A DNA stretch of 64,000 bases, from contig JAONMX010000002.1 in the NCBI GenBank assembly GCA_028378565.1, positions 72,966 to 136,965 of the forward strand, in the 5' to 3' direction. The number at the start of each line of letters is the position of its first letter. The first letter of the stretch is position 1. The position numbers were made by a program, and so were the translations under genes. The notes beneath the pieces are model-generated. The model ran no database searches, had not been told where the DNA came from, and worked only from the letters and a program-made list of their open reading frames with translations. Positions 8,609 to 17,622 of the stretch are shown here, piece after piece. The stretch comes from Bacteriovoracaceae bacterium (GTDB lineage Bacteria; Bdellovibrionota; Bacteriovoracia; Bacteriovoracales; Bacteriovoracaceae).

Positions 8609-9487
8609 ATGTTTAAGTTTGGTGAGTTAAAAGACAAGAAAATTGCTCAAAAGATTAAAAATGATCTAGTAAAAAAATCAATTATTATTGAGGTCAAATA
8701 CAATTATGAAACAGACCTTCATGAGCTTTATGCCACTAAAGAAGAAGACCTTGAAGAGGCCTTTAATTACTTTAGGGTTGTCCTTGGTTTTCCACCTGTT
8801 CATCAGGTAGATCCAGAGTGGGATAAGTTATCTAAAATTTCTCTAGGTAATATAACAAAATTATTTATTATTATTTCTGTTAGTTTGTATATTCTTATTC
8901 ATTTTCTAAAAATGTATGGCCTCTTAGATTTATTATTTATTTCAAATAGCCGTGAGAATCTAAATTTAATTACAAAAGATCTACAAATTTGGCGATTGGT
9001 CACACCAGCTTTCTTGCACTTTTCTATCATTCACATTCTCTTTAATCTTCTTTGGTTAAAAACATTAGGTTCTGTTGTAGAGCAAACAAAGGGTTGGCGT
9101 TTCTACCTGATCATGTTTTTGATATCAGCTATCTTGAGTAACATTCTTCAGTTTTATGTAACCGGCTTTAAGTTTGGAGGAATGTCTGGTTTTGTCTATT
9201 CGCTATTTGGATATCTCTGGCTTCATAAGAAGTTTCATTCTCATTATGAGTTTGGTCTTCCTAAAAGAGATATCTATCTCATGGTTGGTTGGTTCTTTCT
9301 TTGTTTTACAGGACTTATTGGTAATATCGCTAATACAGCTCATGGAGTTGGATTAGGCCTTGGAATGCTCTTTGCTATATTCCCATTAGAAAGGGGCCAA
9401 ATTCTTAAGTATCTTCCATGGGTAATATTCGCCCTGATATTATCTGTTGGCACCTTCTTAATCGAATATTTTCAGTTACTTAGCTAA
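8609..9487 (+). CDS. Rhomboid-family intramembrane serine protease
   Basis: Cleaves transmembrane segments of substrate proteins within the inner membrane. The 292 residues have a soluble N-terminal region of about 80 residues, then six or so membrane helices. The catalytic serine is S193 in GGMSGFVYS, and the catalytic histidine is H245 in ANTAHGVGLG. The family's H-x3-N signature is at HILFNLLWL (142-150). The start is an ATG at 8609 after AAAGGA. The substrate is unknown, but a matrixin-like protease elsewhere in the window ends with a Gly-Gly plus helix tail of the kind processed by rhombosortases. This protein is longer than typical rhombosortases, so the link is speculative. Confidence 0.9.
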   Translation: MFKFGELKDKKIAQKIKNDLVKKSIIIEVKYNYETDLHELYATKEEDLEEAFNYFRVVLGFPPVHQVDPEWDKLSKISLGNITKLFIIISVSLYILIHFLKMYGLLDLLFISNSRENLNLITKDLQIWRLVTPAFLHFSIIHILFNLLWLKTLGSVVEQTKGWRFYLIMFLISAILSNILQFYVTGFKFGGMSGFVYSLFGYLWLHKKFHSHYEFGLPKRDIYLMVGWFFLCFTGLIGNIANTAHGVGLGLGMLFAIFPLERGQILKYLPWVIFALILSVGTFLIEYFQLLS

Positions 9488-9570: not shown

Positions 9571-12500
9571 TTGTTAAAATTTACAAGAAGCTGTCTATTT
9601 ATTTTTGCCTTGATGTTGATAAATCAATTCAGTTTCGCTTCTCGTTTTGTATTACAGTCTACCCACTATGATCAAAACGATGGCGAAAGTAGAGCGGTTT
9701 ATTTAGATACTCAAAAGCAACAACTTGTGATGAAGGAGCTTTCATGGTCCGACACTATAAGAAACGATATTAACAATAATAGAAGGCCACAATTTGAATT
9801 CCCAAAAAATGTTACATCGTTAACGAGTTTTAATTCGAAAGTTTTAAATGAGAGATATAATGTTGATGTTAAGTTTGAATATTTTCCACTTACTTCCGTA
9901 GAAGAATCACAAAGGTCAGTGCGAGAGCTTCGTAATTATATTCCAAAAGATCAAACTCTTGATATCATCAATAAATCTCGAATTGAACTATCAAAAACAA
10001 ATAATCAATTTAAATTAATAAAAAGTTTACGAAAAGGTCGAGATCAAGCCGCTGTTTATTATAATGATGTAACTGGTGAGATTATTTTAAAAGAAATTGA
10101 TCATAAAAAGTCAGGGTTAGCAGACTATCAACTACCTGGACGCATAACATTCCCAAAAGATCTAAACGGAAGAAAAGGTAATATCCACATATCTGATGAA
10201 GATAGCTGGTCAGCTAAAACACCTTTTGAGCTTGAAATTGCCTTAAGAGATTTAGAAGACCAATTAGATGATTGGGACCTTAAGATAGATAGAAGTCTTT
10301 TTAATAGTGGTAAGTTAAAGCTACAACAAAAGATGAGCCAATTTGTTCGAGTAGGAAGATTGAGAGATCGTGACGATAATCGATACTATCATGAAGCATG
10401 GTATAACCCCTCTACAAATGAGTTAGTTTATAGAAAAATTTATCGAAGAAGTGGTAAAGAATATATTAAAGACGAGGAAGTCTTTTCTTTAAGTGATGAG
10501 GAAGACTTTCAAAAAGCTAAAAGTAAGATGAGACGATATAGCTTATATTCGAGTTCTCAATTTGAGTCATTTCGTGACTCACAAATATCAGAATGTAATG
10601 ATGTTATTCAATCCTTTTTAAATCCAATAGATGTCGAAGACTTTAGTGATATTACAGATGTCCTTCATCAACAATTTCTAGAAAGATCTATCGGTAATAG
10701 TATGACCATTACTGACTCTGGAAGAATGATATTACAAACAAATCTAGCACAAAATCCTTTACCGTTAAGCATAGAGCTTAAACCTGATGGAACAATTAAA
10801 AAAGTAGATTTTGCTAGAAGCCTAACATCAAAGGAAAGTGAAGAGCTAAAGATTATTGAAGAGATTGGATTAAATGGTAAGAAAATTTATACAGTAAAAT
10901 CTTTTGATTCTTACAATGGTACTTGGGATACGATGCTTTCTGTTACTGCTGAAGATGTTGTGGGACAGAATGGAAATACACAAGGCAAAATCTCTGTCTA
11001 TGTTAAAGGTATAAAGTCTGAAGGTGATTTTAGGTATTATGATTATGAAAAGAATACTTATTCTTTCTCAATGAGAAATGGAAAAGTTAAAGATGTTGGT
11101 AGAAGAGAGCGCTTAAGTGGAAATGTTACAGACCCTTATAATTATCCTGTTGATAGAGGAAAGGATGGCTTTACTAACTTTCTATTTCAAACGTTCTTAG
11201 GTCGAGATTCGAGAAGATCCAAAGTGAATGATGCAGTCTTAGAACAATCTCGAGAGGCACTAAGTTCTCCAGAGTACGCAGGCCTCATTAAAGAAGAGGA
11301 ACTGGTTACTTTATCAAGAGAGATTACGAATTCCGTTGGAAAAAGAACAAATAATTTTCATTCTAGTTTAGGTAAAATCGAAGCCGTGGCGGCAGAAGAG
11401 TCTTACACAAGGTTTGGCTCCATTATTTTAGAAAGAACCTTAAAAGATCTTTTAACTACTGAGCCACCGGAGCAAATCAAGTCTATTGTTGATAGAACGA
11501 TGGAAGGCTTTAGTGTTTGTTTAAAAAGATCAAGTGACGTGAGAAATTTATCAGAAGCAAATAAGTGTATGGAAATTTTTGGTAGGGAAGCTCCTGTTGA
11601 TATTGGCCGTGACATACTCGGAATAAAACTAAGACAAGCAGATATGGGGGATATCGTAGGATACTCCACAAGACAATATAATGCCTGTATACAAGAGAAG
11701 TATTACCCTCTCTTTAACGGACAGGATAATAGTGATTCCGACGAGTCAATGGATATTGTCAAAGCTTGCTTGTATCAAAGTTTTTTAAAGTCTCTTGAAA
11801 AAGCGATACCAGCAGTTATTGAGTCAGAGCTTGGAGAGATCTCTAAGGATATGGGACTTAACTTAAGTTATGGTGAAGAGCAACAAAGAGCAAGTTTAGA
11901 AAAAATTAATCAATGTATTGCAGAGAAAGGATTAGCTCAAAAATCATCTTTTGGTGTGCAGACAGACTTTGGAAAACTCCAGGCCATGGATCCTGATGAG
12001 TTTGAGCAAGAGTTATTTGGTTGTGTAAATTTATTAATTAATGACATCTCTCACTACGTGGCAAAAGTTGGCCTAGCCGCTAAGCTTAGTGAAATTGAAG
12101 ATTTTACTCCAGAACAAAGAAGTTTAATATTTAGTTCCTCTATTGATAATAGTTTCTCTCAATGTATGAATACTCAAATGGGAATCATCGATAATAAAAC
12201 CCAAGAGTATCGCGGGAGAAAAGTTGAACTCACTCAAGTCTCAAATGGAAAACCATTTATTGTTGATGTAAATGTTCCATCCCTTGAAGCAACAGAATGT
12301 ATTCGGTCGTTAACGAATTATACTGTTGGCATGTCAACAGAATCAATGATCAAAAATATGATTGGTGATCAAAAGTATAATCAGCTCCAAGGTGATTCAT
12401 CTACGGCTTCTTCTTTCCAACAATGTTTTAAAGTAGAAAATGAAAGACTGAATGATGAGCTGAAATCAGTGCTAGTGAGCGAAGCTGGCCTACCTGTTGA

Positions 12501-15351
12501 AGAGAAGAGTGAAAAAGTTAAAACGAGAGATCGCTTAAGTGATTTAAAGACGGCAAGCTGTATAAAAGATGCCATCAGTTGGGCAAGTTATTACGCCGCT
12601 GGTGATATGGTGATTGAAAAACTTGCTGCTGATCCGGAGTATTCTTTTATAAAAATTACTGAGCAGGATAAAGAAGTCATAGGTTCTTTTATTCAGAGCT
12701 GCTTTAACGAACAAATGAAAGATTTTTCAACAGTTGATGAGATACTAGGGAATCAAGAAAAAGTGACTGAATATTGTGGAGCTCAAATGCTAAAAGATCG
12801 CAATGTTCAAAAAATTATAATAGATCCTATTTTAACTAAGTCATTAGCTGACGGCGGTATTACAGGTGAAGAAGCGGCACCTCTTATTAAGGTTCTATCA
12901 GAAGGATTGAATAAAAATATAGCTAATGAAATAACAATTGATGGTGTGATCGCTAAAGCAAGTGCTTTTAAAGAAGATGGTCTTTTATTAGTTGTAAGAG
13001 AAGTCTTAGAGGGTAAAGTTGAAGAACAATTCGACGGGACCAGTGAAACAAATCCTAGAATCGCAGGAATACTTTCAAGTGTTGAAGACCAGATATTTTC
13101 TGCGAGTGGTGGAAATTACGAAGCTCGATTAAGACAGGCCTTATTAGATCCAGATGAGAATAAGTTAACAGAAGTTCTTGATCAACTGAAAAAGGATGCC
13201 ACATTATTAATTGCTCCAAATGTTATTGAACAGTCTGCTGCTGATTTATTGAAAGACGGTACTTTTAATACACAAGAAGAAGCTGATGCTTTAGTAGAGT
13301 TTGGTAAGAAAATTCTAAATGATTGCTTGAATGGCGAGAAAATTGGTGAAGAAACCCAAGATGATCAAATTAATCGTTGTACTAATAAAACAAAAATAGA
13401 AGCTACTTACTTTGTATTAAATGATCGCCTTAAAAATACTTTAGACAATCATGAACTTGCTTCTCAGTATATGAATGATGAAGAGCGTTCAGCATTATTA
13501 GCTTCTTTAGTAAATGATTCAACAAAAACTGAGATTGCTAGAATTGAGGCTATCGAAGATCCTCTTCTAAGAAAAGGCGAGTTTGATAACTTCGTGGCAG
13601 GATTTAAAGCTGACTCTACACGTTCAGTCTTTAATGCCATGGTTCCTTCTATCGTAAATGATCAAGTTAAAGAACCAGACGCCAATAAGCCTGTCATTGT
13701 AAGAGGTGCACGAAGCCTTATGAATCAGTGTATTGATGCTTACAAAGTAACTTCAAAAGAATTTTATATTAATAAAACTATCAGTGATGATGAGTTTAAG
13801 CCAAATGATAGCTTAGATGAATGTGTAAATAGAGCGAGAGTAAAATTAACAAGCGATATTCTACCGACTACTCTACGTAACTTACTAGGACTTATTGATA
13901 GTGAAGTAAATCAATATGAAGATTTAATATTGAAAGCGAGACTTAGTTTCGAATCTTGTGTCAGCAAGAGAAGCTTTGTTATGAATAGTAAACTCTTTGG
14001 TAACGCCGCAGATGCTTGTTTAAATACGATCATTTTACAGTTAATCCCTGAAGCAATTAAGGAGCTGTCAGATAGGAATCCTCCAGTGATCGCAAAGAAT
14101 GTAGAAACGCTTCAAAAAGCAAAAGTATGTGAGCAGAAAGTTAAAGATGATTATGTTGCTCAAACTAAAACCGATATTTCTAGGAATCTGGAAACCGATA
14201 TATTCTTTGAACAGGCCCTTAACAAAGAGTCAATGCCAAAAGCTGATATGGATTGGCTACTCTTCAGTGTTCAGCAGTGTTTACTAAATCATGTTGCTCC
14301 TAACTTGCTTGATGATTATGTCGCAAGAGTTAGTTCTGATCCAAAGCTAGAAATTGGAGAGTCACAAAAAGAATCATTAGAGATGCTTTCTCAGACATTA
14401 GGAAATATCTTAAGTTATCGTGCAAATGGTGAAAAACCAACAAGGCTAGTCTTTAGTATTGATGAGGGAGCTTCAGGAAATAATGAAACCTCGAGCGTAA
14501 ATCCTGCAGCGACAAGCTCTGCAAATGCTAGTGGAGATGAGAAAAGTGTTCCTTATCTCAATATGATGATGGATATGGAGCCACTGATTTTGGAGTATAT
14601 TGAGCTTGTAAACGCTTATGATCCTAACTTGACCCGTACAGCTTTTGCAAAATTAGAAAGAGATATTAAAAAGTACTTAGATGAAAATAATGGTGTCCTT
14701 AATATGGACGACTTATATAAAATTTTAGTTGATTCAGATTTAATAACTGGAGTGATCGAAAGTATCATAAGTCAGTCTGTACGAGAGGAAACTACAAAAG
14801 CTCTCGTTGATGAGGGGGCCAGTACAAGTGTTGTATCCATACTTGCTTCAAAGCAAATGATTGGAAGAATTTTTAGATCAGGTAAAGGGAAAGATGTTAT
14901 CGATAAAATTCGTTATGAATACCTATTACCACTAATGAAGGGTGAGCTTGAGAGTACTGAGCTACCAAGAAACTTGATCAATGATGCCAAGGTTCAATTA
15001 GGTAAAGATCAAAAAAGAGGCGGTTTTGCGGAAGTACTCTTTAGTTCCATCATTCAAAAGAAATTAGATGATGAGCAAGCAGGTATTGAGTCTGGATTCT
15101 TTAAATATGTGAAAATGTCAGCTGCAGGCTGGATGGGATATAATAAGTATGAAGATTTTGAATGGGGAAGTCGTTATAGTACTTCAAAATATAAATTAAG
15201 AAATACTCCTTCTGGTATGAATGCCATGGCCGTTTTTGCAAATGATATTTTAATACCAAAACTAACAGGCACACTATCAACTAAGAAAGAAGAAGATGCT
15301 ACTGAGAGAATTACAGATTTAATTAAAGAAGCAATGGATGAGAATGAGTAG
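9571..15351 (+). CDS. Giant exported protein with paired-cysteine helical repeats
   Basis: A 1,926-residue protein I cannot assign to a family. A signal peptide (about residues 1-23, ending FSFA) implies export. Residues 24 to about 330 contain three beta-rich units of roughly 100 residues, each with a pattern like YYN-x-TGE-I-x-KEI (compare VYLDTQKQQLVMKEL, VYYNDVTGEIILKEI, AWYNPSTNELVYRKI). Residues 650-1570 are helical with twenty cysteines in ten pairs: 650/666, 706/733, 782/818, 865/910, 952/997, 1044/1069, 1252/1270, 1387/1418, 1463/1483 and 1520/1570. The first cysteine of each pair tends to follow an aromatic or aliphatic residue two or three positions before it. The last 356 residues have no cysteine. 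The start is a TTG at 9571 with GAGG upstream. The pairs probably form disulfides in the periplasm or outside the cell. A structural or surface role is possible. Confidence 0.85.
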   Translation: MLKFTRSCLFIFALMLINQFSFASRFVLQSTHYDQNDGESRAVYLDTQKQQLVMKELSWSDTIRNDINNNRRPQFEFPKNVTSLTSFNSKVLNERYNVDVKFEYFPLTSVEESQRSVRELRNYIPKDQTLDIINKSRIELSKTNNQFKLIKSLRKGRDQAAVYYNDVTGEIILKEIDHKKSGLADYQLPGRITFPKDLNGRKGNIHISDEDSWSAKTPFELEIALRDLEDQLDDWDLKIDRSLFNSGKLKLQQKMSQFVRVGRLRDRDDNRYYHEAWYNPSTNELVYRKIYRRSGKEYIKDEEVFSLSDEEDFQKAKSKMRRYSLYSSSQFESFRDSQISECNDVIQSFLNPIDVEDFSDITDVLHQQFLERSIGNSMTITDSGRMILQTNLAQNPLPLSIELKPDGTIKKVDFARSLTSKESEELKIIEEIGLNGKKIYTVKSFDSYNGTWDTMLSVTAEDVVGQNGNTQGKISVYVKGIKSEGDFRYYDYEKNTYSFSMRNGKVKDVGRRERLSGNVTDPYNYPVDRGKDGFTNFLFQTFLGRDSRRSKVNDAVLEQSREALSSPEYAGLIKEEELVTLSREITNSVGKRTNNFHSSLGKIEAVAAEESYTRFGSIILERTLKDLLTTEPPEQIKSIVDRTMEGFSVCLKRSSDVRNLSEANKCMEIFGREAPVDIGRDILGIKLRQADMGDIVGYSTRQYNACIQEKYYPLFNGQDNSDSDESMDIVKACLYQSFLKSLEKAIPAVIESELGEISKDMGLNLSYGEEQQRASLEKINQCIAEKGLAQKSSFGVQTDFGKLQAMDPDEFEQELFGCVNLLINDISHYVAKVGLAAKLSEIEDFTPEQRSLIFSSSIDNSFSQCMNTQMGIIDNKTQEYRGRKVELTQVSNGKPFIVDVNVPSLEATECIRSLTNYTVGMSTESMIKNMIGDQKYNQLQGDSSTASSFQQCFKVENERLNDELKSVLVSEAGLPVEEKSEKVKTRDRLSDLKTASCIKDAISWASYYAAGDMVIEKLAADPEYSFIKITEQDKEVIGSFIQSCFNEQMKDFSTVDEILGNQEKVTEYCGAQMLKDRNVQKIIIDPILTKSLADGGITGEEAAPLIKVLSEGLNKNIANEITIDGVIAKASAFKEDGLLLVVREVLEGKVEEQFDGTSETNPRIAGILSSVEDQIFSASGGNYEARLRQALLDPDENKLTEVLDQLKKDATLLIAPNVIEQSAADLLKDGTFNTQEEADALVEFGKKILNDCLNGEKIGEETQDDQINRCTNKTKIEATYFVLNDRLKNTLDNHELASQYMNDEERSALLASLVNDSTKTEIARIEAIEDPLLRKGEFDNFVAGFKADSTRSVFNAMVPSIVNDQVKEPDANKPVIVRGARSLMNQCIDAYKVTSKEFYINKTISDDEFKPNDSLDECVNRARVKLTSDILPTTLRNLLGLIDSEVNQYEDLILKARLSFESCVSKRSFVMNSKLFGNAADACLNTIILQLIPEAIKELSDRNPPVIAKNVETLQKAKVCEQKVKDDYVAQTKTDISRNLETDIFFEQALNKESMPKADMDWLLFSVQQCLLNHVAPNLLDDYVARVSSDPKLEIGESQKESLEMLSQTLGNILSYRANGEKPTRLVFSIDEGASGNNETSSVNPAATSSANASGDEKSVPYLNMMMDMEPLILEYIELVNAYDPNLTRTAFAKLERDIKKYLDENNGVLNMDDLYKILVDSDLITGVIESIISQSVREETTKALVDEGASTSVVSILASKQMIGRIFRSGKGKDVIDKIRYEYLLPLMKGELESTELPRNLINDAKVQLGKDQKRGGFAEVLFSSIIQKKLDDEQAGIESGFFKYVKMSAAGWMGYNKYEDFEWGSRYSTSKYKLRNTPSGMNAMAVFANDILIPKLTGTLSTKKEEDATERITDLIKEAMDENE

Positions 15352-17183: not shown

Positions 17184-17214
17184 AATTTCAGAATGTCACT
17201 TAAGGTCATTGTAT

Positions 17215-17622
17215 ATGAAATTTTTATTCTTTCTTTTTTTAACACTTATAAGCTTCTCGTCAATGACAGAAGAGGATTCTTCTAAATCTAAACCGGTAAA
17301 CTCAAGCAAGGAGTTAAAGCTGGAGTCAGATGAGTTAGATAAAATTAGAAGACAGAGATTTGAGCCACGTATTTCTAATAAGTATTATAGGGGAGAGCAT
17401 CTCATCTATGATTGCCGCGATGACCATTTTGCCTGTGTAAATACCGAATCGTGGGCACGATGTGAAGACTTAAGAGATTTCGATAAGAGTGAAAGACGTA
17501 GAAAGCTTAGGTGTGCACCTCTGAAAATATTTAAAACTCAAAAAGAGTGCTTTGAAGAGCAATATAAGCAAATCCACAATCAAAAAATTAAAATCATCTG
17601 TATTAATAAGAAAAATTTATAA
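17215..17622 (+). CDS. Small secreted protein of unknown function
   Basis: A 135-residue protein with a signal peptide (MKFLFFLFLTLISFSSM) followed by an acidic, lysine-rich linker of about 40 residues. The mature part is basic and has six cysteines, including YDCRDDHFACVNTESWARC, suggesting disulfide bonds in the periplasm. The track begins at a TTG (17209). The ATG at 17215 is better placed, 9 bases after AAGG. I do not recognise the family. The next gene, an exported lipase-like protein, follows 64 bases downstream on the same strand. Confidence 0.7.
   Translation: MKFLFFLFLTLISFSSMTEEDSSKSKPVNSSKELKLESDELDKIRRQRFEPRISNKYYRGEHLIYDCRDDHFACVNTESWARCEDLRDFDKSERRRKLRCAPLKIFKTQKECFEEQYKQIHNQKIKIICINKKNL

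Follow-up and report, generated by a model that had tools for sequence, protein, structure and literature searches.

Tandem alpha/alpha repeats with disulfide bridges have been described in the Helicobacter cysteine-rich proteins HcpB and HcpC, which are built of Sel1-like repeats (PMC2581425, PMC4746701), and CagY of Helicobacter pylori is a very large envelope protein with alpha-helical repeats, regular cysteines, and variation in unit number (PMC2581425). Both disulfide-bridged alpha/alpha repeats as a working principle and a giant protein of helical repeats bearing regular cysteines have precedents. In predatory Bdellovibrionota, many genes are annotated only as hypothetical (Halobacteriovorax marinus, Table 2, PMC5760749). 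Here, we analyzed a gene for a giant, apparently exported protein in a 64,000-nucleotide stretch of DNA (hereafter, the window) from a Bacteriovoracaceae bacterium (features in Table 1). The protein resembles HcpB and HcpC in its alpha/alpha repeats, here putatively disulfide-bridged, but Hcp units have 36 residues compared to about 55–78 for the regular units of the giant family, and the giant protein is far larger, carries beta units as well as a C-terminal domain that is conserved, and did not match Sel1 at the thresholds applied. With CagY it shares a long helical repeat array, regular cysteines, and varying unit number. However, the A repeats of CagY are 38–39 aa long with extensive direct repeats at the DNA level, whereas the units of the giant family are longer and diverged; CagY is flanked by putative transmembrane segments, whereas the giant protein has none beyond its signal peptide; and CagY belongs to a type IV secretion system, whereas no secretion genes adjoin the giant gene. 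Generic alpha-solenoids (TPR, HEAT-like) are similar in having stacked helical hairpins, though, unlike them, the giant protein had no PDB match by Foldseek at E 0.001. Because unit length differs and no model matched, the giant protein is, by sequence comparison, not a member of the Hcp/Sel1 or CagY families.

The database searches were consistent with this placement. No match above threshold was obtained from Pfam (source protein, 12 homologues, and 5 distant relatives) or NCBIfam (source protein and 33 homologue segments), each including the Sel1/TPR models, and the sub-threshold hits to Feld-I_B, Beta-prism_lec, and DUF445 were rejected as falling below their own curated cut-offs. Sequence searches of the PDB returned chance matches or none. 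Foldseek, a blunt tool here as the queries were whole arrays of ~1150 residues, found nothing at E 0.001 in the PDB for the two halves (best E-values, 0.11 and 0.0068; TM-scores <0.1), and one viral match (E 7.6e-4) was rejected for a TM-score of only 0.10–0.12. Thus, the Pfam, NCBIfam, and PDB searches gave no match to a known single-domain family, which an earlier note on this DNA had named as a finding that would count against its reading of a helical repeat family, and a literature search returned no paper that, by title and abstract, seemed to describe the family.

Table 1 Features of the giant gene and its surroundings (positions in the window; residues of the giant protein)
Feature	Position	Strand	Basis or remark
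Rhomboid protease gene	8609..9487	+	Directly upstream of giant gene, 83 nt between
Giant protein gene (product predicted exported)	9571..15351	+	1926 aa, 217.5 kDa, pI 4.9
Predicted signal peptide, residues 1-24	9571..9642	+	Read by eye; model: hydrophobic helix 2-19
N-terminal beta-alpha unit 1, residues 26-120	9646..9930	+	Profile comparison and model
N-terminal beta-alpha unit 2, residues 147-255	10009..10335	+	Motif YYNDVTGEIILKEI; profile comparison and model
N-terminal beta-alpha unit 3, residues 259-322	10345..10536	+	Profile comparison and model
Low-confidence linker, residues 338-359	10582..10647	+	Holds invariant unpaired Cys342 (codon 10594-10596)
Beta domain, residues 374-515	10690..11115	+	AlphaFold2 model
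Helical region with ten Cys pairs, residues 633-1589	11467..14337	+	Cys positions, repeats, model, conservation
Cys pair 1, Cys650-Cys666	11518..11568	+	Position and conservation
Cys pair 2, Cys706-Cys733	11686..11769	+	Position and conservation
Cys pair 3, Cys782-Cys818	11914..12024	+	Both replaced (E/I) in L024
Cys pair 4, Cys865-Cys910	12163..12300	+	Conserved; loop length variable
Cys pair 5, Cys952-Cys997	12424..12561	+	Conserved; loop length variable
Cys pair 6, Cys1044-Cys1069	12700..12777	+	Conserved
Cys pair 7, Cys1252-Cys1270	13324..13380	+	Conserved; repeat comparison
Cys pair 8, Cys1387-Cys1418	13729..13824	+	Absent as pair in paralogue group b
Cys pair 9, Cys1463-Cys1483	13957..14019	+	Conserved
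Cys pair 10, Cys1520-Cys1570	14128..14280	+	Conserved; loop length variable
Disordered linker, residues 1630-1657	14458..14541	+	AlphaFold2 model
C-terminal helical domain, residues 1658-1926	14542..15348	+	GGFAE, DFxW, LRNTPSG; profiles and model
Small exported six-Cys protein gene	17209-17622		Syntenic

The giant gene starts with TTG, preceded by a ribosome-binding-like site (GTGAGGA), and its product appears to be exported, as judged from a signal peptide recognized by eye that is the sole strongly hydrophobic stretch in the protein. Beyond it, the 1926 residues showed neither a transmembrane segment nor an outer-membrane anchor. AlphaFold2, run in two pieces on alignments of the locus proteins (residues 780–1926, mean pLDDT 85.5, pTM 0.51; residues 1–1190, mean pLDDT 83.6, pTM 0.59), predicted three-stranded beta units with helices at the N terminus and, from residue ~535 onward, helices throughout save for short strands and the disordered linker. 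The Cys region was thus modeled as helical all along, and a fold lacking repeats, which the earlier note had said would speak against its reading, was not seen; the array may be extended in shape, as in the long rod that the note had put forward. That note had also described three N-terminal units with a YYN-x-TGE-I-x-KEI type motif. These are genuine repeats by profile-profile comparison (N1/N2 93%, N2/N3 93%, N1/N3 57%), but the motif occurs literally, as YYN-x-x-TGEI-x-x-KEI, in unit 2 only (AVYYNDVTGEIILKEI) and is degenerate in the other two (AVYLDTQKQQLVMKEL and EAWYNPSTNELVYRKI).

Apart from Cys8 within the signal peptide and the single Cys342, the cysteines of the protein are the twenty listed in Table 1, which fall into ten pairs starting where they had been reported, with none between 342 and 650 or in the final 356 residues. 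The F/I/L-x-x-C context ascribed to most first cysteines was present in seven of the ten, the other three having Y, M, or A. All 20 paired cysteines were retained in all 18 orthologues, most of which are only 22–29% identical, and invariant columns comprised 21 of the 21 scorable Cys columns (Cys342 included) vs 22 of 1546 others, so this cysteine pattern is far beyond chance. Thus, the earlier observation held with small corrections, although it had overlooked Cys342, which is invariant and single and makes the number of conserved cysteines odd. Cys342 might form an inter-chain disulfide. Separately, the regular relatives described below also have an odd number of cysteines, with one single Cys after the last pair.

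Homologues proved common within the host lineage. A protein search of 39 genomes returned orthologues at 62%, 30%, 29%, and ~24% identity, and a scan of genome contigs found one locus only, with a 61% identical orthologue in JAAEST010000053.1. Profile searches, which covered Bdellovibrionota, were more productive: profile A1 (built from 12 homologues) had matches in 59 of the 130 genomes from the same family (Bacteriovoracaceae) and in 63 of 370 genomes in the phylum sample, of which four lie outside Bacteriovoracaceae, so the protein family is widespread within Bacteriovoracaceae. The source genome itself carries a second, paralogous giant gene (L078, G000:C77:24668-26155), which is cut by the contig end. 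Overall, the family is large, is without a name in Pfam or NCBIfam as searched, and varies in unit number. The C-terminal helical domain is its most widely shared part, being kept in paralogues and distant relatives in which the N-terminal beta part is absent or altered.

We consider it fairly probable that the giant protein is an exported, disulfide-stapled alpha-hairpin repeat scaffold, and several other readings were weighed against this one. The first is a surface or secreted adhesin, in which a stapled stalk would hold the N-terminal beta units out toward prey. Predicted export, very large size, repeat construction, and varying unit number all fit, the lineage includes obligate predators, and the N-terminal beta units with the beta domain would make a plausible tip. 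On the other hand, the protein has no visible outer-membrane anchor or transmembrane segment, and it is this would-be tip that is missing or different among the relatives, unlike the retained C-terminal domain, which leaves an adhesin on prey possible but rather doubtful.

The gene neighborhood bears on a second alternative, a periplasmic chaperone-like or assembly scaffold whose array would bind client envelope enzymes encoded nearby. Loci of the source-protein type share as neighbors the rhomboid gene (syntenic in nearly all of them), argS, and suf-type genes, the latter two as read from translations. The rhomboid was rejected as a dedicated partner, since many genomes have it without a source-type giant gene. 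The small exported protein has six invariant cysteines (LIYDC...HFACVN...CAPL...C...C-N) and no Pfam name, and its gene directly adjoins the giant one in G099-G101, three related genomes; it too was rejected as a specific partner, since its family occurs in 127 of the 130 Bacteriovoracaceae genomes (some matches lying within longer frames). In genus g15, the rhomboid and six-Cys genes adjoin with no giant gene between them. The neighbors of the giant gene are not a specific operon. In paralogue group b, the gene downstream of the giant one encodes a conserved ~510-aa protein, also exported (L079:9919-11478, L023:2691-4235, L026:2689-4224, and others), with six cysteines and endonuclease/exonuclease/phosphatase (DNase I-like) motifs, although its match to Pfam PF03372 was weak (best E 0.0025 in two members, below cut-off). 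In L083 (1971-2726) and L084, a giant relative of a third type, with 29–31 cysteines, adjoins an Amidase_3 gene for a peptidoglycan amidase. The paralogous giant gene is also flanked by a divergently transcribed gene for an unnamed exported protein of ~327 aa (L023:8615-9595, L079:4703-5674, and others), which contains a CxxC and, at its C terminus, a (K/R)C-hydrophobic-F motif that mostly reads KCFF. The nuclease-like protein of group b and the adjoining amidase gene are what speak for a client scaffold, but the source-type gene has no such neighbor and the rhomboid and six-Cys genes are widespread without it, and we consider this role unlikely.

Whether the helical region is a true repeat was approached within the source protein and through its distant relatives. 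Profile-profile comparison of units in the Cys region gave 97% for U7/U8 (96% with cysteines masked), 86% for U4/U8, and 84% for U7/U9, and the mean unit-unit score was 17.7 vs 9.5 for reversed profiles. With cysteines masked, the mean fell to 13.1 vs 12.0 for other segment pairs; because this is near background, the likeness of units in the source protein, U7/U8 excepted, resides mostly in the cysteines. Two longer intervals in the region (183 and 117 residues) may hold Cys-free units. The distant relatives, 1,036–1,234 aa long with 9–12 Cys pairs, are more regular: in L066-L069 the gaps strictly alternate between 10–22 residues within a pair and 42–57 residues to the next, and units of this class span ~55–78 aa, typically 59–68. 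Their profile aligned to the source-protein family over 828 columns (100%, E 1e-40). Units left out of the distant-class model were recognized with a mean of 13.6 bits vs −1.0 for shuffles, and with cysteines masked with 5.8 vs −0.25 bits, although the p-values of this test are too small as orthologous units are not independent. The same unit model reached at most 12.0 bits in the source protein (most matches being weaker) and at most 22.7 in its homologues, compared to a best of −0.9 for the reversed-sequence control. Within one genus, the 1177-aa and 1036-aa forms of different species (L096 and L097 compared to L089 and L092) differ by two units, i.e., 141 residues and four cysteines.

Tandem homologous helical units, as in disulfide-stapled alpha/alpha repeat proteins, are thus present in the family, and the regular plan of the distant relatives is probably ancestral. 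The reading of a diverged helical repeat family put forward in the earlier note is borne out by the helical models, the unit homology, the regular 9–12-unit relatives, and the whole-unit deletions, and on this point its interpretation, partly supported overall, stood. The near-background masked similarity of most source-protein units would suit a convergent helical likeness without a common repeat, in which cysteines in long helices are kept for local reasons, but we consider this very unlikely given that left-out distant-class units were recognized with cysteines masked, that U7/U8 kept 96% under masking, and that two whole units were lost together with their two pairs within one genus.

If the protein is a stapled scaffold, the cysteines should bond as drawn, and their loss among paralogues informs on this. 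For the pairing proposed in the earlier note, 15 paralogues showed both cysteines kept in 102 cases, both lost in 31, and discordance in 7, vs 33 discordant cases when the pairing was shifted in the same sequences, though these counts are not independent since many losses are shared by descent. Separate events of pair loss affected, in group b, pairs 650/666 and 1387/1418, and, in L024, pair 782/818, where E and I now stand. Discordance in two sets (L024 and L022) looks like the outcome of single deletions, each of which took out the second Cys of a pair together with the first Cys of the following pair and thereby left a new pair. Several loops within pairs differ by 22–46 residues in length, but loops within pairs were not significantly more variable overall than segments between pairs (p 0.30). 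In the predicted models, most pairs flank a helix junction, the first Cys being close to where one helix ends and the second close to where the following helix begins; the exception is Cys865, mid-way in a long predicted helix. We count this against our preferred explanation, along with the pTM of only 0.51–0.59, the near-background masked similarity of most source-protein units, the outcome of the loop comparison, and neighbors that do not make up a specific operon. DsbA and DsbB homologues are encoded in the source genome and three relatives, so extracytoplasmic disulfide formation is possible. Together, the signal peptide, these genes, the pair-wise loss, and the modeled helix positions suggest that the Cys pairs are probably disulfides. 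Metal or cofactor binding in place of disulfide bracing would fit the very strict conservation, but it is most improbable given the 10–60-residue spacing unlike CxxC metal or heme motifs, the finding that none of the 7 His columns is invariant, the signal peptide and DsbA/DsbB homologues, and the loss of cysteines by pair.

For the stapled scaffold that we favor, we propose a soluble exported protein in which a Sec-type signal peptide would be followed by three beta-alpha units, a beta domain, an antiparallel alpha-hairpin array, and the conserved helical C-terminal domain. Disulfides made by DsbA/DsbB would staple each helix to the one after it and close the intervening loop, with one staple per canonical unit, such that loops could lengthen or shorten and whole units be lost while the array stayed intact. 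Its role would likely be that of a stable scaffold or binding surface outside the cytoplasm, whether periplasmic, exposed on the cell, or secreted, and the C-terminal domain may serve as a common functional or anchoring end. Both location and scaffold role are what we infer from these features, and a part in predation would be a guess from the host lineage. A bolder view, which we hold to be improbable, is that of a new superfamily of giant, exported arrays of disulfide-stapled alpha-hairpins, first noticed in this protein, widespread in Bacteriovoracaceae and scattered in other Bdellovibrionota, that would act as a force- or protease-resistant scaffold in prey attack, with Cys342 linking two chains.

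The comparisons demonstrate the repeat nature of a modular family that is real and strongly conserved. For these bacteria, a very large, apparently exported hypothetical protein can now be read as a modular design, probably of one helical hairpin and one staple per unit, which gives a testable family, a profile for annotation, and a candidate component of structures in the envelope or in contact with prey. It may also show, in a natural protein, how loops closed by disulfides can vary greatly in length.
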